From Armatimonadota bacterium (GTDB lineage: Bacteria; Sysuimicrobiota; Sysuimicrobiia; Sysuimicrobiales; Humicultoraceae): a stretch of DNA of 64,000 nt. The stretch spans positions 2,687,906 to 2,751,905 of the forward strand of contig JAVKHP010000001.1 of NCBI GenBank assembly GCA_031459855.1. Reading direction: 5' to 3'. This document shows positions 21,105 to 29,964 of this stretch, in pieces. The first letter of the stretch is position 1. Every line of letters starts with the position of its first letter. The notes under the pieces are model-generated. The model ran no database searches. It saw only the letters and a program-made list of their open reading frames with translations, and was not told where the DNA came from. The position numbers were made by a program, and so were the translations under genes.

Positions 21105-23321
21105 TCAGGTGGGCACCACCCGGGCGACGCTGAAGACCTCGGGCACCTTCTCGATCTTCTGCATCACCCCATGGAGCTGGCCGACGTTGCGAATGTCCAG
21201 CACGATGTTGGTCACCGCCACCTTGTCCTTGCGAATGCGGGCGTTCACCGAGACCACGTTGGTCTTGGTCTCCGCGATGGCGGCCAGGATGTCCTTGAGC
21301 AGCCCCACCCGGTCGAACGCCTCCACCTCCACCTCCACCTGGTAGGGGCCCTCGTGGGTGCGCTCCCACTCCACCTCCATGACGCGCTCGGGGTGCGCGC
21401 GCAGGAAGGCGATGTTGGGACAGTCGCTCCGGTGGATCGTCACGCCTCGCCCCCGGGTGACGTAGCCGACGATCCGGTCCCCGGGCAGCGGCGTGCAGCA
21501 GCGGGCGAAGTGCATCAGGACGTTGTCGACCCCGCGCACGCGCACGCCGCGCGACGCCTGGGCCGGCGGCGCGGCCGAGGGTACGGGCGCCGCGGGGGCC
21601 TCCGCGGCCGGCGCCTCGCCCCGCAGCGCAGCGACCACCTGCAGCAGCGAGACGTCGCCGTTGCCGATGGCGGCCAGCAGCTCCTCCTCGGACCGCAGCC
21701 GGAACTGCTCGGCGACCTCGCGCAGGCGCTCGGCCTTCATGGCCGCGGCCACGGCGCCGGTGCGGCGCAGCTCGCGCTCCAGCAGCTCCCGGCCCCGGGC
21801 CACGTTCTCCTGGTGGCGCTCGCGCTTGAACCACTGCTTGATCTTCGAGCGGGCGTTGCTGGTGACCACGAACGTCAGCCAGTCGCGGCTCGGCCCCGGG
21901 CTCGACTTGTTGGTCACGATCTCCACGATGTCGCCGGTGTGGAGCTTGTGCGACAGGGGCACCAGCCGCCCGTTCACCCGGGCGCCCACGGTGTGGTGGC
22001 CGACGTCGGTGTGGATGCGGTAGGCGAAGTCGACCGGTGTGGCACCCGCCGGGAGGTCGATGACGTCGCCCTTGGGGGTGAACACGAACACCTCGTTCTG
22101 GAACAGGTCCAGCCGCACCGACTCCACGAACTCCCGGGCGTCGGCGAGGTCCTGCTGCCACTCCAGCAGCTGCCGCAGCCACGCCAGCTTGCGCTCGACC
22201 TCGCGTTCGGCGGCCGAGCCCTGCTTGTACTTCCAGTGGGCCGCGATCCCGTACTCCGCCTCGTGGTGCATCTGGTGGGTGCGGATCTGGATCTCCAGCG
22301 GCTCGCCCTCGTAGAGCACGGCGGTGTGCAGCGACTGGTAGCCGCTGGTCTTGGGGGTGGCGATGTAGTCGTCGAACTCGCCGGGAATGGGCTTCCACAG
22401 CGAGTGCACCACGCCCAGCGCCGCGTAGCAGTCCTTCACGTCGTCCACCAGGACGCGGATGCCCAGCCGGTCGTAGATCCGGGCGATGCTCTGGCCAGCG
22501 TACTTGGGCCGCTGCAACTTCTTCCAGATGCTGTAGAGGTGCTTGGGGCGCCCGGTGATGTGCCGGCGGTCGACCTTGATGCCCGCCTTCTGCAGCTCGC
22601 GATGCAGCACGGCGCACACCCGGTCCACCAGCGCCTGGCGGGCCTCTTCGGCCTGCGCCAGCTCCCGGGCGAGCTCGGCGTAGGTCTCGGGGTGCAGCTC
22701 GCGGAACGCCAGGTCCTCCAGCTCCTTCTGGAGGCTCCCGATCCCCAGGCGTTCGGCCAGCGGGGCGTAGATGTCCAGGGTCTCCTGGGCCGTGCGCTTG
22801 CGCTTCCACTCGGGCAGGGGCGCGATCGTCCGCATGTTGTGGAGCCGGTCGGCGAGCTTGATGAGCACGATGCGGACGTCGTTGGCCATGGCCAGGAACA
22901 TCTTGCGCAGGCTCTCGGCCTGGCGTTCTTCGCGGCTCTGCCACTCGATCTTGCCCAGCTTGGTCACCCCGTCGACCAGGCCGGCGATCTCGGCGCCAAA
23001 TCGCTCCCGCAGCTCGGCCGCCTCCACGCCGGTGTCCTCCAGGACGTCGTGGAGCAGGGCCGCCGCCACGGTCGTGGGGTCGAGGTGCAGGTCCGCCAGG
23101 ATCGTGGCCACGGCCACGCAGTGCGAGATGTAGGGATCCCCCGATGCCCGCATCTGGCCCTCGTGGGCCTGGGCAGCGGCCAGGTACGCGTCACGCACCA
23201 CGTCCAGGTCGGCCTTGGGGAACCGCTGGCGCAGCGTCGCCACCAGGCTCTGCACCTCGGGTGGCAGCGCCTGGAAGCTGCGGGGTTGTCGGAACAGGTC
23301 CAGCCACTTCACCGGCGTCAC
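21105..23321 (-). CDS. rel: Bifunctional (p)ppGpp synthetase/hydrolase
   Basis: Long-form Rel/SpoT homologue of about 738 residues. The HD hydrolase domain has SHCVAVATILADL and LLHDVLEDT (about residues 65-100), so hydrolysis is probably active. The synthetase domain is seen in GRPKHLYSIWKKLQ and TSGYQSLHTAVLYEG. TGS follows (VFVFTPKGDVIDLPAGATPVDFAY), then the zinc-finger-like HFARCCTPLPGD and a C-terminal ACT domain (VEVEAFDRVGLLKDILAAI). GTG at 23321 and GTG at 23312 are both possible starts; neither has a strong ribosome site. Confidence 0.94.
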   Translation of the reverse strand: MTPVKWLDLFRQPRSFQALPPEVQSLVATLRQRFPKADLDVVRDAYLAAAQAHEGQMRASGDPYISHCVAVATILADLHLDPTTVAAALLHDVLEDTGVEAAELRERFGAEIAGLVDGVTKLGKIEWQSREERQAESLRKMFLAMANDVRIVLIKLADRLHNMRTIAPLPEWKRKRTAQETLDIYAPLAERLGIGSLQKELEDLAFRELHPETYAELARELAQAEEARQALVDRVCAVLHRELQKAGIKVDRRHITGRPKHLYSIWKKLQRPKYAGQSIARIYDRLGIRVLVDDVKDCYAALGVVHSLWKPIPGEFDDYIATPKTSGYQSLHTAVLYEGEPLEIQIRTHQMHHEAEYGIAAHWKYKQGSAAEREVERKLAWLRQLLEWQQDLADAREFVESVRLDLFQNEVFVFTPKGDVIDLPAGATPVDFAYRIHTDVGHHTVGARVNGRLVPLSHKLHTGDIVEIVTNKSSPGPSRDWLTFVVTSNARSKIKQWFKRERHQENVARGRELLERELRRTGAVAAAMKAERLREVAEQFRLRSEEELLAAIGNGDVSLLQVVAALRGEAPAAEAPAAPVPSAAPPAQASRGVRVRGVDNVLMHFARCCTPLPGDRIVGYVTRGRGVTIHRSDCPNIAFLRAHPERVMEVEWERTHEGPYQVEVEVEAFDRVGLLKDILAAIAETKTNVVSVNARIRKDKVAVTNIVLDIRNVGQLHGVMQKIEKVPEVFSVARVVPT

Positions 23322-23409
23322 CCGCGCCGGGCCGCATGTCGCCCGACGCCGCGACAATATCGTAGCAAATTCGCGGTGGACGACCGGCTCCCTGCGCCCT
23401 GCGCCCCGC

Positions 23410-26400
23410 CTACCCGGCGGCCAGGTCGGCCAGCAGCGTGGCGGCGGGCCCGCCTGCCCAGGCGCGCAGGGCGGCCAGGGCCGCTCGCGCGCGCTCACCC
23501 TCGACGTACCGCAAAGATCGATGCAGCGGCACGCGCCCGGCCACGTCGGCCAGCGTGTAGCGCACCGTCCCCAGATCCTCGCGGGTGAGCACGCCGGCCT
23601 CGGTCAGGATCGCCAGCGCGGCCTCGAGCTGGAGCGGACTGCAGCCACTCCCCTCCAGCACGGGCGACTGGTCCGGTGCGCCCGCGACAGTCCCTCCGGC
23701 CGCGCGGATGGCGCGGTAGCAGCGTACGAGCACGTCCCGCGGGGGAAACGTCTCCGCCAGCGCACCCTCGGCCGCCGCCAGGTGGTCGGGGCCGTACGCC
23801 AGGATCACCGTCGCGCGCCGCCCGTCCGCCCCGGCCAGGGCCAGCTCCTCGACGGCCAGCAGGGGATCGGGACGGAGGCCCAGCGCGACGACGCGGCGCA
23901 CATCGGGGCAGATCGCGGGCGCGGTCGCGTGCGTCCCCAGCACCAGGCAGTCGAGCCGGCCGGCCCCGAACAGGTCCTCGAGCACCCGGCGCAGGGTCGC
24001 GGGCAGCCCGGCGTGGTAGTACGCGATACGGTCGTCCCGTCCGTCCTGGCGCATCCCTGCGGCGACCGTCACGCTGGTGGCGGGGTCGGCGACGATCACG
24101 ACGGTCTTCCCGTCCTTGCCGTTCGCCCTCGGGCCTGCCCAGACGTCGGCCCCGCCGCCACGGCGGTCGACCAGCCTCAGGGTCTCGCGTGCTCCGCCGC
24201 CGACCGCCACCATCGACAGACCGCGGGCCGCACACCGACGCACCAGAGCGTCCGGCAGCGGGCCCACCACGAGTCGCACGACCTCGCCGGCACGGTCCAG
24301 CAGGCGCTCGAGATCCTCTGCCGCCAGCGCGTCGGCCACGACGATGGCCGCAGCCACGGCGTCGGGGTGACGTTCCACCCACGGCAGCGATGCGATGAGC
24401 ACGTCGAGCCGGTCCCCGGCCAGCGCTTCGGCCACCCGGCCGGCGACGGTCGGCGAGGCCGCGCCGTGGATGGCGGCCGCGCGCACGCCAAGAGCTCGCA
24501 ACCACGGCGCGGCGAGCTCCCACCACGCGTCGGCCACCGCTGCGCGCGGCACGGCCAGCACCGTGGGGCGTCGTCCGCGTGCCAGCACCGCAAGGGCAGC
24601 GATGATCGCGGAGGACACCAGCCCGCGTCCGGGGCCCAGGGGCACCACCAGGCGCTCGCCACGGCGCAGACGCCCCCACGCGTCACGCTGCGCACAGGTG
24701 GGCGCACGGCCGCGCAGCAGACCGGCCACGAGCGCGTCCGGGACGTCGGTCTCCTCCGGCCAGTGCACCCGGCTGATGGTGTCGTCTGCCTCCGGATCGG
24801 CCACCCCGGTGCGCTCGACCAGGATGTTGAGGCCCCAGGACCGCGCACCGCCGCCGGTCACCGCGGTGGCCGTGGCGACGTACCGTGCGCCGGCGTCCAT
24901 GGCAGGGGCGAGGTGCGCGGCGAGGCGCGCCCGCAGAAACCCCAGGTGCGTGCCATCCAGCCGGCAGACCGCGATGGCATACGGGTCGCGCGGGTTGGAC
25001 GGCTCGCGTACCAGACGCAGCCGCTCCCCGGGCTGCACCCTGGGCACCACGGCCTGTCGTCCGGCGTAGGTCACCCCCACGACCTTGGTGTGGAATGCGC
25101 CGGCGTGCTCCAGCGGGCGTCGGCCGCTCTCGAGCGCATCGAGGTAGTCGGACGCCCGGGCGAACAACCGCTCGAGCACCTGGCGCGTATCGGTCGCCAC
25201 CGCGTCCAGGTCGACCCCCGGTGTGACCATGTCCACGGCGACCAGCCGGAGCGCAGGGGCATCGCCCCAGGTGTCCAGCGCGAGGGTGTACGCAAGGTCC
25301 ACCGAGGCCTGGGTGAAGGCCAGGAGTTCGGCCTTCTCGCCTTCCCGGAAGGCGATCACTTCTGCCGTACGGTGGCCGTCGCCGACCACCAGGCGCAAGT
25401 GCGTCCCGTCGCCGACGAGGCGTGTCGCCACCGCCCGCAGCCCGCGGGTAGCGAACACCGGCTCGGGGTTGCCCGGGCCGTGAGGGGCCAGGAGGCCCAG
25501 GGCGTCGACGAGGTCCTGGGAGAGAGCCTCCAAACCCACCTCCGCGTCGATCGCCACGATCGGGCGCAGGTCGTCGGCCGTGACCCTGGCTGCCACGGCG
25601 TCCTCGAACGCGCGGGCGAAGGCGTCGACGGCATCGGCGGCGATGGACAGGCCGGCGGCCATGGCGTGGCCCCCGTAGGCCAGCAGGTGGCTGTCCGCCG
25701 CGCGCAGCGCCTCGACCAGATGAACCGCGGGGACGCTGCGCGCCGAGCCCCGGCCGCTGCTACCCTCCAGGGCGATCAGCACCACCGGGCGGTACAGGCG
25801 CTCTGCCAGCTGGGAGGCCACGATCCCGACCACGCCCGGATGCCATCCTTCCTGCGCCAGGACCACCGCCAGGCGCACCCCCAGCCCATCCCGCTGCACG
25901 CGCTCGAGCGCCTCGGCGAACACGGCGTCACACAGCTGGCGCCGCTGCCCGTTCAACCGATCGAGGGTCTGCGCCAGCGCGCGTGCCTCCTGCGGGTCCT
26001 CGGTGAGTAGCAGGCGCACGGCGTCCCGGGCGTCGGCCAGCCGACCGGCGGCGTTGAGCCGCGGCGCCAGGCCATGCGAGACGTCCCGCACCACAAACGG
26101 CGACCGCAGCCCGGCGACGTCGGCGAGCGCGGCCAGGCCCGGCAACGTTCGGCGGGCGAGGTGCGCCAGTCCGACGGCGACCAGCACGCGGTTGTCGTCG
26201 AGCAACGTCACCGCATCGGCGATCGTGCCCACGGCGGCCAGCGCGACCAGGTCCGCGGGCACCATATGGCCCCGGCGGGCGAACAGCGCGCGGGCGAGCT
26301 GGAGGGCCAGTCCCGCAGCGCAGTAGTCCCCTGGGCGGGGCGACTGCCGTTTGGGGTTGACGAGGGCGGCAACGGCGGGGAGCTGCTCCGGGGGCTCGTG

Positions 26401-26913
26401 GTGGTCCAGGATCACGACGTCCACCCCATGCGCACGGGCCACGTCGGCAGCGGCATGGGCCGTGGTCCCGCAATCCACGGCGAGCAGCAGCCCGGCCCCG
26501 CGCGTTGCCAGCGTCGCGACCGCCTCCGGGTGGAGCCCGTACCCGTCGCGGCGTCGGTCGGGCACGTAGAAGTCGACGTTGCCACCCAGCGTCCGCAGTG
26601 CGCGCACGAGGATGGCCGTGGCCGTGACACCGTCGGCGTCGTAGTCGCCGTAGACCACGATGGGCCGGCGCGCTTCCAGCGCGCCGGCCACGCAGGCCAC
26701 CGCCCGGGCCATGTCCGCCAGCTGCAAGGGATCCTGAAGCCGGTCCAGGTGGGGAGCGAGGAACGCCTGGGCGGCCTGCGGGTCGCGCAGCCCGCGGTTG
26801 ACCAGCACCCGCGCCACCAGCGGATGCACGCCCAGGGCTGTGGTCAGGGTGGCTGCCGCCGGATCTGCCGGCGCAATCCGCCACCGGGTCCCCTGCCCCT
26901 GCGTGTGCGTCAC
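23410..26913 (-). CDS. recJ: RecJ exonuclease fused to HIRAN and RecQ-like helicase-fold region
   Basis: A 1167-residue protein, about twice the usual RecJ. Residues about 30-565 are RecJ: YGDYDADGVTATA (90), LDHHEPP (170), DHHA1 with GGHAMAAG (about 414), then the OB domain. About 607-695 is a HIRAN domain (VGVTYAGRQ... EPSNPRDPYAIAV... LGFLRA). About 750-1050 looks like a superfamily 2 helicase: YYHAGLPATLRR and LVLGTHATAPAICPDVRRVV echo RecQ motifs. The Walker A position reads GPGRGLVSS and the DExH position VVADALA, so ATPase activity is doubtful. The end resembles a winged helix. GTG at 26913 is chosen for the RecJ-like N terminus; the ribosome site is weak. Confidence 0.88.
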   Translation of the reverse strand: MTHTQGQGTRWRIAPADPAAATLTTALGVHPLVARVLVNRGLRDPQAAQAFLAPHLDRLQDPLQLADMARAVACVAGALEARRPIVVYGDYDADGVTATAILVRALRTLGGNVDFYVPDRRRDGYGLHPEAVATLATRGAGLLLAVDCGTTAHAAADVARAHGVDVVILDHHEPPEQLPAVAALVNPKRQSPRPGDYCAAGLALQLARALFARRGHMVPADLVALAAVGTIADAVTLLDDNRVLVAVGLAHLARRTLPGLAALADVAGLRSPFVVRDVSHGLAPRLNAAGRLADARDAVRLLLTEDPQEARALAQTLDRLNGQRRQLCDAVFAEALERVQRDGLGVRLAVVLAQEGWHPGVVGIVASQLAERLYRPVVLIALEGSSGRGSARSVPAVHLVEALRAADSHLLAYGGHAMAAGLSIAADAVDAFARAFEDAVAARVTADDLRPIVAIDAEVGLEALSQDLVDALGLLAPHGPGNPEPVFATRGLRAVATRLVGDGTHLRLVVGDGHRTAEVIAFREGEKAELLAFTQASVDLAYTLALDTWGDAPALRLVAVDMVTPGVDLDAVATDTRQVLERLFARASDYLDALESGRRPLEHAGAFHTKVVGVTYAGRQAVVPRVQPGERLRLVREPSNPRDPYAIAVCRLDGTHLGFLRARLAAHLAPAMDAGARYVATATAVTGGGARSWGLNILVERTGVADPEADDTISRVHWPEETDVPDALVAGLLRGRAPTCAQRDAWGRLRRGERLVVPLGPGRGLVSSAIIAALAVLARGRRPTVLAVPRAAVADAWWELAAPWLRALGVRAAAIHGAASPTVAGRVAEALAGDRLDVLIASLPWVERHPDAVAAAIVVADALAAEDLERLLDRAGEVVRLVVGPLPDALVRRCAARGLSMVAVGGGARETLRLVDRRGGGADVWAGPRANGKDGKTVVIVADPATSVTVAAGMRQDGRDDRIAYYHAGLPATLRRVLEDLFGAGRLDCLVLGTHATAPAICPDVRRVVALGLRPDPLLAVEELALAGADGRRATVILAYGPDHLAAAEGALAETFPPRDVLVRCYRAIRAAGGTVAGAPDQSPVLEGSGCSPLQLEAALAILTEAGVLTREDLGTVRYTLADVAGRVPLHRSLRYVEGERARAALAALRAWAGGPAATLLADLAAG

Positions 26914-27021: not shown

Positions 27022-27049
27022 TCGGTTCCCGCCCATCGCGCGCTGGCAC
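27022..27049. repeat. Direct repeat copy 1
   Basis: The 19-base block tcggttcccgcccatcgcg recurs exactly 80 bases further on, and similarity extends through ggcacc. It lies upstream of recJ on the minus strand. Confidence 0.6.
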
Positions 27050-27145: not shown

Positions 27146-27430
27146 TCAGGCGCCGGGTTCCGGCCGGTCGCCCGGCACGCCCCGCGCCGCTTCCAGTTCG
27201 CGCACCCGGGCTTGCAGCTCGCGGACGCGCGCGCGCAGGTGCTGCTGGCCCAGCAGGCTGCTGACGAAGACCAAGAGGCCGCCGATCACGGCGCCGCCGA
27301 CGACGGCCAGGGCCACCGTGGTCTGCACCTGCCAGACGAGGAACCGGAGCACGACCGGGTCGGGGTTGTACAGGGCGAACACGGTCACCCCGACCAGCAA
27401 CAGCAGCGCGAACAGCGTGAACGCCGACAC
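27146..27430 (-). CDS. LapA/DUF1049-family membrane protein
   Basis: 94 residues with two membrane helices (about 4-22 and 40-62) separated by NPDPVVLRFLVWQVQ, the typical LapA-domain (DUF1049) linker. A basic coiled-coil tail follows (LRARVRELQARVRELEA). Relatives are called lipopolysaccharide assembly protein A, but the name says little in a possibly monoderm organism. GTG at 27430 has GGAGG six bases upstream. It lies 66 bases downstream of secF. Confidence 0.8.
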   Translation of the reverse strand: MSAFTLFALLLLVGVTVFALYNPDPVVLRFLVWQVQTTVALAVVGGAVIGGLLVFVSSLLGQQHLRARVRELQARVRELEAARGVPGDRPEPGA

Positions 27431-27496
27431 GTCGCCCTCCTCACCTGCTGCCGGTCGCACGGCACGTCACAGACGCCACCCCTGGCAGGTACCGGG

Positions 27497-28507
27497 TCAG
27501 CGCCGGCGACTCCGCCGGCGTCCCGGTGCGGACGGCGCGGCCGCACTGACCGCAGCCTCCGGTGCGGGACCCTGCGCGGCCAGCGCCGCACGCCCGCGCC
27601 CGGCCCGCCGTTCGGCCCAGAGGTGCCAGTCGACGAGCAGCGCGCTGGCGTTGAACACGGACGAGTACGCCCCGGTGAGAATCCCCACGATCAGCCCAAA
27701 CGCGAAGTCCCGGGTGGTGGAGCCCCCGAAGAGGTAGAGCGCCCCAAGCGCCAGCAGGGTCGTCAGCACCGTGTTGATGGAGCGCACCAGCGCTTCCAGC
27801 AGGCTGCGGTTGACCAAACGGTCGAAGGGCTCGCGCGTCCGCAGGGCCAGGTTCTCCCGGATCCGGTCGAAGACCACGATCGTGTCGTTGATCGAGTAGC
27901 CGACCACCGTGAGGAGCACGGCCACGAAGCTGCTGTTGACCTCCTTGCGGGTCAGGGCGAAGACCCCCACGACGACCAGCAGGTCGTGCAGCAGGGCGGC
28001 GTCGGCCGTGAGCGCGTAGCGCACGGACCGGAACCGATAGGAGATGTACAGCACCTGCAGGGCCAGGCCCAGGACGACCGCCACGATGGCCACGTTGCGC
28101 AGCTCTCTGCCGATCTTCGGCGAGACCTGCTCGTGCTGCAGCACCGTGACGCGGCCAAACTGCGCGCGTAGTGCCGCCAGCATCCCCTCACGGGCCTCCG
28201 CCGCCATCGGCCGGGTGCGGATGAACAGCAGGCCGTCGCGCTCCTCCTGGCCGCCGCGCTGGATGATGCTCTGCCCCACCGCGTAGCGGTCCACCACAGC
28301 ACGCACTTGGTCGAGGGTGAAGGGCCGTTCGACCCGCAGCTGGAAGAAGTCGCCGCCGGTGAAGTCGACCCCCCAGTTGAGGGCACCGCGGCCCTGGGCC
28401 GCGTGCCAGACCAGGGCCACCACCCCGGGCACGATGACCAGCAGCGACAGCAGGTAGCCCCATCGGCGGCGGCCGATGATGTCCCACAGGCGAGGCGCGT
28501 CGGTCAT
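27497..28507 (-). CDS. secF: Protein translocase subunit SecF
   Basis: 336 residues, six predicted membrane helices. An N-terminal helix precedes GVDFTGGDFFQLRV, the SecF signature. A periplasmic-side domain follows, then a helix bundle with VVGYSINDTIVVFDRIREN, the conserved proton-path region. The C-terminal tail is Ala/Pro/Arg-rich. ATG overlaps the secD stop as ATGA. With SecD it uses the proton gradient to help export through SecYEG. Confidence 0.95.
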   Translation of the reverse strand: MTDAPRLWDIIGRRRWGYLLSLLVIVPGVVALVWHAAQGRGALNWGVDFTGGDFFQLRVERPFTLDQVRAVVDRYAVGQSIIQRGGQEERDGLLFIRTRPMAAEAREGMLAALRAQFGRVTVLQHEQVSPKIGRELRNVAIVAVVLGLALQVLYISYRFRSVRYALTADAALLHDLLVVVGVFALTRKEVNSSFVAVLLTVVGYSINDTIVVFDRIRENLALRTREPFDRLVNRSLLEALVRSINTVLTTLLALGALYLFGGSTTRDFAFGLIVGILTGAYSSVFNASALLVDWHLWAERRAGRGRAALAAQGPAPEAAVSAAAPSAPGRRRSRRR

Positions 28508-29865
28508 CGTCGCGCCCCTCCCGCCATGCGCTCCAGCGCGCCGCCCAGGCCCAGGGCGTCGAGGCCGTCGGCGAGCGCCCGGGTGACCACGATGGCCGTG
28601 AACATGCTGACGACGACGCCGACGCTGAGCGTGACGGCGAACCCGCGGATGGGCCCGCTACCCAGCAGGAAGAGCACCAGCGCCGCCAGCAACGTGGTGA
28701 CGTTCGAGTCCAGGATGGTGGTCATGGCGCGCCGCCATCCGGCCGTCATCGCCGCCCGCACGCCCTTCCCGCCCCGCAGCTCCTCTTTCATCTTCTCGAA
28801 GATGATCACGTTGGCGTCGTCCGCCATGCCCACCGACAGCACGATGCCGGCCACGCCCGGGAGCGTCAGCGTAGCGCCCAGACCGGTCAGGACCGCGACG
28901 AGGAACACCAGGTAGGCCGCCAGCGCCAGGACGGCGAGCACGCCGGCGGCCCCGTAGTAGAGGGCCATGAACCCCGCCACGGCCACGGAGGCGATGCCAG
29001 CGGCTTTCAGGCTGGCCTGAATCGAGTCACGGCCCAGCTGGGGGCCCACGGTGCGGTTCTCCACCACCTCGACGGGGATGGGGAGCGCACCGCCCCGCAG
29101 CAGCACGGCCAGGTCCCGGGCCTCCTCGATGGACCGAAACCCGCCGCTGATGACCCCCCGCCCGCCGGTGATGCGGTCGCGGATCACCGGCGACGAGATC
29201 ACCTCGTTGTCGAGCACGATGGTGAGGTAGCGGCCGATGTTCTTGCCGGTGAACTCCTCGAAGATCCGGCTGCCGCGGCCGTGGAACTCGAACTGCACGA
29301 TGGGCTCGGCGGTGGTCTGGTCGAACGCGGCACGGGCATCCCGCAGGTCCGCGCCGGTGAGCACCACCTTCTTCTCCAGCGCCAGCGGCGCCGGCGGGGC
29401 CTGCCCGGCCGGCGCGGGCAGGGTGACGGTCTTGCCATCAGCGCTCCACCGCGCGCCCTCGGGCAGCTGCTGGGTCCCGGTGTCGACGAACTCCAGCAGC
29501 GCGGTCGTGCCGATGAGCCGGATGGCCCGGTCGGGATCCTCGATGCCGGGCAGCTCGACGATGATCCGCGTCGCGCCCTGGCGCTGGATGGTCGGCTCCA
29601 CGACCCCCAGCTGGTCGATGCGCCGCTCGATCACCCGCATGGCGGCGTCCACCGCTTCGGGTGTGGCCTTCGTGGTGGGCGAGTCGCGGCCTTCGAGCAC
29701 CAGCAGGCTGCCACCCTGGAGATCGAGGCCGAGGTTCATGCGCAGGGCGGCGCCCTGCCACGCCGGACGCCATCCGTGGAGACGAACCGGCTGGAAGGCG
29801 ATCTGCACGGCGACCAGCACCAGGACGAGGATCAGGAGTAGCCGAAGACCGACGCGCGATCCCAC
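28504..29865 (-). CDS. secD: Protein translocase subunit SecD
   Basis: 453 residues. An N-terminal membrane helix is followed by LGLDLQGGSLLVLEG, the P1 domain, and a helix bundle holding GMADDANVIIFEKMKEE. The family motif is usually GMAVDANVLIFERIKEE; here Val is Asp, putting two acids side by side. GTG at 29865 follows AAGGGGAT by seven bases. A consensus promoter lies upstream, with an unusual hairpin-plus-T-run in the first bases of the transcript. Confidence 0.94.
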   Translation of the reverse strand: MGSRVGLRLLLILVLVLVAVQIAFQPVRLHGWRPAWQGAALRMNLGLDLQGGSLLVLEGRDSPTTKATPEAVDAAMRVIERRIDQLGVVEPTIQRQGATRIIVELPGIEDPDRAIRLIGTTALLEFVDTGTQQLPEGARWSADGKTVTLPAPAGQAPPAPLALEKKVVLTGADLRDARAAFDQTTAEPIVQFEFHGRGSRIFEEFTGKNIGRYLTIVLDNEVISSPVIRDRITGGRGVISGGFRSIEEARDLAVLLRGGALPIPVEVVENRTVGPQLGRDSIQASLKAAGIASVAVAGFMALYYGAAGVLAVLALAAYLVFLVAVLTGLGATLTLPGVAGIVLSVGMADDANVIIFEKMKEELRGGKGVRAAMTAGWRRAMTTILDSNVTTLLAALVLFLLGSGPIRGFAVTLSVGVVVSMFTAIVVTRALADGLDALGLGGALERMAGGARR

Positions 29866-29934: not shown

Positions 29935-29964
29935 ATTATAGGCGTCTGAGGAATGCAGTGTCAA
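29935..29964 (-). promoter_or_regulatory. Consensus promoter of secDF
   Basis: Perfect TTGACA (29964-29959) and perfect TATAAT (29940-29935) with an 18-base spacer on the minus strand. The bases TTGACACTGCA and CTATAATG recur in the yceD operon promoter at 42656-42685. Confidence 0.8.

Follow-up and report, generated by a model that had tools for sequence, protein, structure and literature searches.

The only RecJ encoded in the 3.19-Mb genome described here – that of an Armatimonadota bacterium belonging to the phylum Sysuimicrobiota – is a composite protein: behind the RecJ core come a HIRAN domain, a helicase fold of RecQ type with two lobes, and a tail at the C terminus. Its gene lies at 23410-26913 on the minus strand of the window, the whole 64,000-nucleotide stretch of contig JAVKHP010000001.1 that was analyzed, and is an uninterrupted open reading frame (ORF) of 1167 codons with a GTG start at 26913. 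The ATPase activity of the fused motor has very likely been lost throughout the phylum, as judged from the near-zero retention of the Walker A lysine, motif II, and motif VI. An earlier note on this DNA, made from the sequence alone, had described a RecJ joined to HIRAN and a degenerate RecQ-like half, and this description is borne out by Pfam, by a profile of 32 relatives, by a structure model, and by conservation across the phylum.

The protein scores 469 bits against the NCBIfam RecJ model TIGR00644 (curated cut-off 396.9), and all four of its Pfam matches – DHH, DHHA1, RecJ_OB, and HIRAN (Table 1) – exceed their gathering scores, HIRAN with 52.4 bits relative to a cut-off of 24.7. The catalytic residues D90/D92/D94, D147, D170-H171-H172, D233, and GGH414-416 are invariant among 17 full-length sequences. 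With its catalytic core intact, the window RecJ is predicted to be a 5′-3′ exonuclease acting on single strands.

When the window protein is queried alone the RecQ signal is faint (12 bits; PDB phmmer E 0.0065), and it scores 9.7 bits against the RecQ model TIGR00614, below the cut-off of 219.8. A profile built from the 32 relatives covers both RecA lobes of RecQ crystal structures (4tmu, E 9e-24), and Pfam Helicase_C (PF00271) and DEAD (PF00270) match 25 and 15 of the 32 family members, respectively. The earlier note had proposed a structure prediction for the back half; an AlphaFold2 model of residues 598-1167 (mean predicted local distance difference test [pLDDT] score 84.8, predicted template modeling [pTM] score 0.77) shows a RecQ/WRN helicase fold, with WRN, RECQL5, and RecQ as its top PDB matches and a Z of 26.2 over 344 residues at 5.0 Å with WRN bound to ATP-gamma-S. 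Profile and model both indicate that the back half is a RecQ-type two-lobe fold. Pfam gave no RQC or HRDC match in the window protein at E-values up to 10, and neither domain is required of every RecQ. For the tail, Foldseek gave no known fold beyond RecQ/SF2, the tail never having been queried alone.

Alignment to motif-complete relatives places GPGRGLV opposite GTGRGKS and VADALA opposite VDESHH, which confirms the Walker A (GPGRGLVSS) and DExH (VVADALA) losses suspected in the earlier note, and motif VI is lost too. All 32 aligned relatives lack the Walker A lysine, the DExH acids, and the arginines of motif VI, so the loss reflects neither chance nor sequencing error; a sequencing error or frameshift in the window was rejected as its cause on these grounds. 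Across the phylum, motifs I, II, III, and VI are lost: the Walker lysine is kept in 0%, the motif II Glu and His in 3% each, and the arginines of motif VI in 0% and 10%, and the GxGRG loop is partly retained (Arg 78%, Gly 88%). Taking as reference the residues conserved among the motif-complete relatives, we defined the kept fraction as the share of these that the phylum retains. It is 89-97% for HIRAN and 93-96% for the tail, compared to 33% for the ATP motifs and 39% for the helicase DNA-contact motifs, the latter two values being similar by permutation (p 0.26). The relation to RecQ suggested by two short segments in the earlier note is real, but the segments themselves read differently: the first (YYHAGLPATLR) is motif IVa (H-x-G-L...R), which is nearly invariant, and the second (ICPDVRRVV) lies after motif V, little of which is left.

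The full RecJ-HIRAN-RecQ-tail architecture is present in 41 of the 43 genomes of the phylum, and the remaining two, which gave no strong match, are 69-72% complete. HIRAN is found in 32/32 relatives, and lobes 1 and 2 vary little in length from one member of the phylum to another. Purifying selection acts on the dead half, most strongly on HIRAN: ratios of nonsynonymous to synonymous substitution (dN/dS), obtained by a simple counting method and pooled over close pairs, are 0.20 for RecJ, 0.15 for HIRAN (the lowest), 0.30 for the first RecA lobe (RecA1, the highest), 0.24 for the second (RecA2), and 0.25 for the tail; in one pair (L026-L021) the RecJ value is spoiled by a truncated frame. CSP1-3 has been assigned to the Sysuimicrobiota (PMC11604079). 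The deposited names of metagenome-assembled genomes from one phylum (L081-L101) range over Armatimonadetes, Bacillota, Candidatus Nitrosymbiomonas, and Terrabacteria ANGP1, which makes database labels of the fused recJ misleading.

Fusions with complete motifs are present in the Bacillota. Among the RecJ genes of 119 sampled Bacillota genomes, with frames of ~580 to >1200 codons, ten encode the whole RecJ-HIRAN-lobe 1-lobe 2-tail arrangement (profile E 1e-108 to 1e-143), and in these the motifs GTGRGKS or ATGRGKS, DESHH or DEAHH, TAT, and QxxGRxGRDG are intact; in the three checked with Pfam, DHH, DHHA1, RecJ_OB, HIRAN, DEAD, and Helicase_C are all present. From these motifs, the ten fusions are predicted to be active enzymes. 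A strict replacement of RecQ by the intact fused motor was sought and not found, as five of the ten genomes also have a RecQ over the cut-off. Other Bacillota have degenerate lobes, a partial lobe 2 with the tail, or the tail alone, and where the motor has been lost HIRAN has nearly always been lost as well; of four degenerate long forms, one retains it. RecJ of the Bacilli retains just a piece of lobe 2 and the tail, the region of PF10141. The window family and Bacilli-type RecJ tails are collinear by hhalign (Prob 96.6, E 6.5e-10), and PF10141 (cut-off 26.4) scores 27.2 bits in one scan and 24.0 in another on the tail of an intact-motif fusion (G117); it has no match in the window protein itself at E-values up to 10. 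Given the collinearity and the match in the intact fusion, PF10141 (ssDNA-exonuc_C) is best read as a remnant of the fused motor. Other RecJ variants were also seen: that of genome G059 (L139:1471-3762, minus strand) has its DHH domain interrupted by an RNase_T exonuclease domain of the DEDD type (Pfam 235-394, E 3e-32), and three from Bacillota (L211, L212, and L213) have ~190 extra residues ahead of the DHH domain, a part with no Pfam match, together with a short tail.

A third phylum presents the converse arrangement. Among ~340 other bacterial genomes a full-length match was found in just two (G290 and G426), which are of one family, and their gene encodes HIRAN, an intact motor, and the tail without the RecJ part, directly after secF. 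A TIGR00644 search found no RecJ in either genome; other families of the same phylum do have RecJ, with tails homologous to that of the window family. In a tree of helicase cores all of the fused motors group in a single clade that is separate from five stand-alone RecQ proteins (100/100), and the copies from the window's phylum likewise group in one clade (100/100). The window's phylum is one clade in the RecJ-core tree too (99, Shimodaira-Hasegawa-like approximate likelihood ratio test), and the motif-complete Bacillota forms are scattered. By sequence, the fused motors, dead and motif-complete, share a common origin. The earlier note had counted homologues with intact Walker motifs at other positions as a refutation; none was found in the window's phylum, and because homologues in other phyla are intact at the same positions, the dead motor descends from a fused one whose motifs were complete. 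The simplest account is an ancestral fusion that suffered repeated losses, and horizontal spread of the fusion among phyla is possible. A more far-reaching scenario – in which the ancestor of several phyla had, or spread distributed, a motif-complete single-chain RecQ-RecJ resection machine that was made motorless at least three times, leaving PF10141 as a fossil and the dead motor of the window's phylum recast as a DNA-end reader or gate, a RecC/AddB-like pseudo-helicase evolved independently from RecQ – strikes us as improbable.

The gene order around recJ is secD-secF-small ORF-recJ-relA, with a predicted sigma-70 promoter preceding the set (Table 1); an NCBIfam scan gave no match for the small ORF. 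Neither a second RecJ nor a separate RecQ that might compensate was found in the genome, and both were rejected as candidates. RecQ over the cut-off is absent from 42 of the 43 genomes of the phylum; the sole genome with one (G025) has it in a frame of 1800 codons. The window's genome does encode a UvrD helicase fused to a PDDEXK_1 nuclease (L299:4968-8015, minus strand), which adjoins RNase Y and is the sole PDDEXK_1 match of the genome.

Table 1. Features of the fused recJ gene, its neighbors, and its counterparts lacking RecJ (window coordinates unless a locus is named)
Feature	Coordinates	Strand	Remarks
recJ gene	23410..26913	-	1167 aa; GTG 26913; in-frame ATG further upstream at 27036
RecJ core, residues 1-560	25234..26913	-	catalytic DHH motifs intact
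DHH domain, residues 85-230	26224..26661	-	PF01368 E 3e-22
DHHA1 domain, residues 349-441	25591..25869	-	PF02272 E 6e-15
RecJ OB domain (RecJ_OB), residues 455-559	25237..25551	-	PF17768 E 4e-22
HIRAN domain, residues 605-683	24865..25101	-	PF08797 E 5e-14
RecA-like lobe 1, degenerate, residues 735-905	24199..24711	-	profile, structure model
Walker A remnant GPGRGLVSS, residues 760-768	24610..24636	-	motif-complete relatives: GTGRGKS
Motif II remnant VVADALA, residues 858-864	24322..24342	-	motif-complete relatives: VVDESHH
RecA-like lobe 2, degenerate, residues 908-1050	23764..24192	-	Pfam, profile, structure model
Motif IVa YYHAGLPATLR, residues 965-975, retained	23989..24021	-	alignment
Motif VI remnant EELALAGADGRR, residues 1022-1033	23815..23850	-	motif-complete relatives: QQSGRAGRDG
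C-terminal tail, residues 1055-1167	23413..23751	-	homologous to Bacilli RecJ tail (PF10141 region)
relA/spoT, next downstream of recJ	21105..23498	-	TIGR00691 794 bits; listed ORF, true start further in
Small ORF, 104 aa, upstream of recJ	27146..27460	-	putatively LapA/DUF1049-like, by eye
secF	27497..28507	-	TIGR00966 282 bits
secD	28504..29865	-	TIGR01129 432 bits
Predicted sigma-70 promoter TTGACA-18-TATAAT	29935..29964	-	perfect consensus, 12/12; consensus match only
HIRAN-RecQ-tail genes without RecJ, two genera of one family	L267:5082-7433; L268:5343-7472	-; +	behind secF

In resection by the RecF pathway, RecJ and RecQ are textbook partners that have been known as two proteins rather than one. 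E. coli RecJ depends on RecQ to start on blunt or 3′-overhang ends, and in Deinococcus RecQ and SSB stimulate RecJ on 3′ overhangs (PMC4846377). We propose, and give roughly an even chance of being right, that the window protein, the sole RecJ, is a former resectase whose back half is now a non-catalytic unit for end recognition and docking. The ancestor would have been a ‘resectase’ with RecJ, HIRAN, and RecQ in a single chain, its RecQ-type motor and HIRAN together passing DNA ends to the nuclease, and the motor of the window's phylum would since have lost ATP binding and hydrolysis. HIRAN may hold the 3′-terminated strand at a break or gap, as suggested by human HLTF, with the two dead RecA lobes acting as a rigid bridge that keeps both HIRAN and the tail in a set position with respect to the RecJ gateway. 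The tail may dock a partner, with SSB a candidate: in Deinococcus, SSB-Ct (PMC4846377) and HerA (PMC4663267) are both bound by the C-terminal domain of RecJ, and in B. subtilis RecJ is among the main partners of SSB (PMC3000357). With RecQ absent from nearly all genomes of the phylum and the fused motor dead, unwinding must come from elsewhere; it could be supplied in trans (e.g. by the UvrD-PDDEXK protein), or be unneeded if RecJ acts on gaps and 5′ overhangs. Several points weigh against this proposal. SSB docking by the tail would be pure analogy; the HLTF stacking tyrosine Y93, one of two described, appears to be aligned with an Arg in the window HIRAN; and the full-length AlphaFold model has a pLDDT of 82.9 and a pTM of 0.63, so the relative placement of the halves and the orientation of the lobes are unreliable.

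The earlier note had suggested that the helicase fold was retained to serve as a DNA clamp or protein scaffold. Its retention is supported by the dN/dS of the lobes (0.24-0.30), but a clamp acting through the helicase cleft finds no specific support. Such a clamp, in which the dead helicase closes its RecA cleft round single-stranded DNA as an ATP-free processivity clamp or brake for RecJ, is in keeping with the preserved fold, the near-invariance of motif IVa, and the precedent of D. radiodurans PriA, a pseudohelicase that retains DNA binding (PMC4504706). Its expected signature – DNA motifs outlasting ATP motifs – was tested and not found, as the DNA-contact motifs Ia, Ic, IV, and V are eroded like the ATP motifs, and we regard the clamp as rather unlikely. 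Because the DNA motifs are no better kept than the ATP motifs and HIRAN and the tail are strongly retained, end binding, bridging, and docking are favored over it; the retention of HIRAN, motif IVa, and the tail fits end binding plus the scaffold part of the suggestion better than a clamp.

The lobes could also be passengers, in a motor that became jobless early and is decaying, where HIRAN and the tail are what matter and deletion of the lobes would misplace the tail. RecA1 does have the highest dN/dS, and the Bacillota show every intermediate of loss, with the tail last to go; but both lobes are near-constant in length and under purifying selection, and HIRAN is universally kept here though usually lost with the motor in Bacillota, and we consider this unlikely. 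The logic of RecC/AddB, where a dead helicase fold is tied to a resection nuclease, and selection without catalysis (dN/dS) would suit a dead motor that scans DNA for sequence or structure and switches the nuclease; no set of DNA-contact motifs is retained, however, and this reading seems very improbable. That the motor still hydrolyzes ATP through a rewritten active site is scarcely credible: the partial retention of the GxGRG loop speaks for it, and the virtual absence of the Walker lysine, the motif II Glu, and the motif VI arginines speaks against it. The reading we prefer remains that of a nuclease whose back half recognizes ends and docks partners.

No description of a RecJ-HIRAN-RecQ fusion was found in a search of open-access literature. 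What is new here is the presence of Bacillota fusions with intact motifs, the single clade of fused motors, and the motor without RecJ in a third phylum. Living genomes present a series from complete (some Bacillota) to dead (a whole phylum) to nearly erased (Bacilli), with the converse in the third phylum, and this natural series lets one ask what a motor adds to a nuclease and for what purpose a dead one is retained. The series also suggests where PF10141, an unexplained Pfam domain of Bacillus RecJ, came from.

Like RecC and AddB, the window protein has a dead helicase fold serving a resection nuclease; RecC/AddB differ in having an SF1 fold, in forming a separate subunit, and in reading Chi. 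The window protein shares the DHH, DHHA1, and OB core and the catalytic residues with E. coli and D. radiodurans RecJ (TIGR00644), but E. coli RecJ lacks the back half, and the extra C-terminal domain of Deinococcus RecJ is reported without a defined homologue (PMC4846377, PMC4663267). Bacillus-type RecJ with PF10141 is homologous in the tail and the end of lobe 2, but has neither HIRAN nor lobe 1 and only a small part of lobe 2. With RecQ, WRN, and RECQL5 the window protein shares the two-lobe RecA fold – these are the best PDB matches by both profile and model – and differs from RecQ helicases in having lost motifs I, II, III, and VI, in lacking RQC and HRDC by Pfam, and in being fused to RecJ and HIRAN. 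The HIRAN domain has the conserved N-P-x-D-x-x-A-I segment of HLTF HIRAN, which sits on a SWI/SNF motor rather than on RecJ and a RecQ-type core. D. radiodurans PriA (PMC4504706) is a parallel case of a repair motor that has lost helicase motifs throughout a phylum, but it has another helicase as its ancestor and carries no fused nuclease. S. aureus DinG (PMC12345164) similarly combines a nuclease and an SF2 helicase in a single chain, but as a 3′-5′ exonuclease with a 5′-3′ XPD-type helicase whose motor is active.

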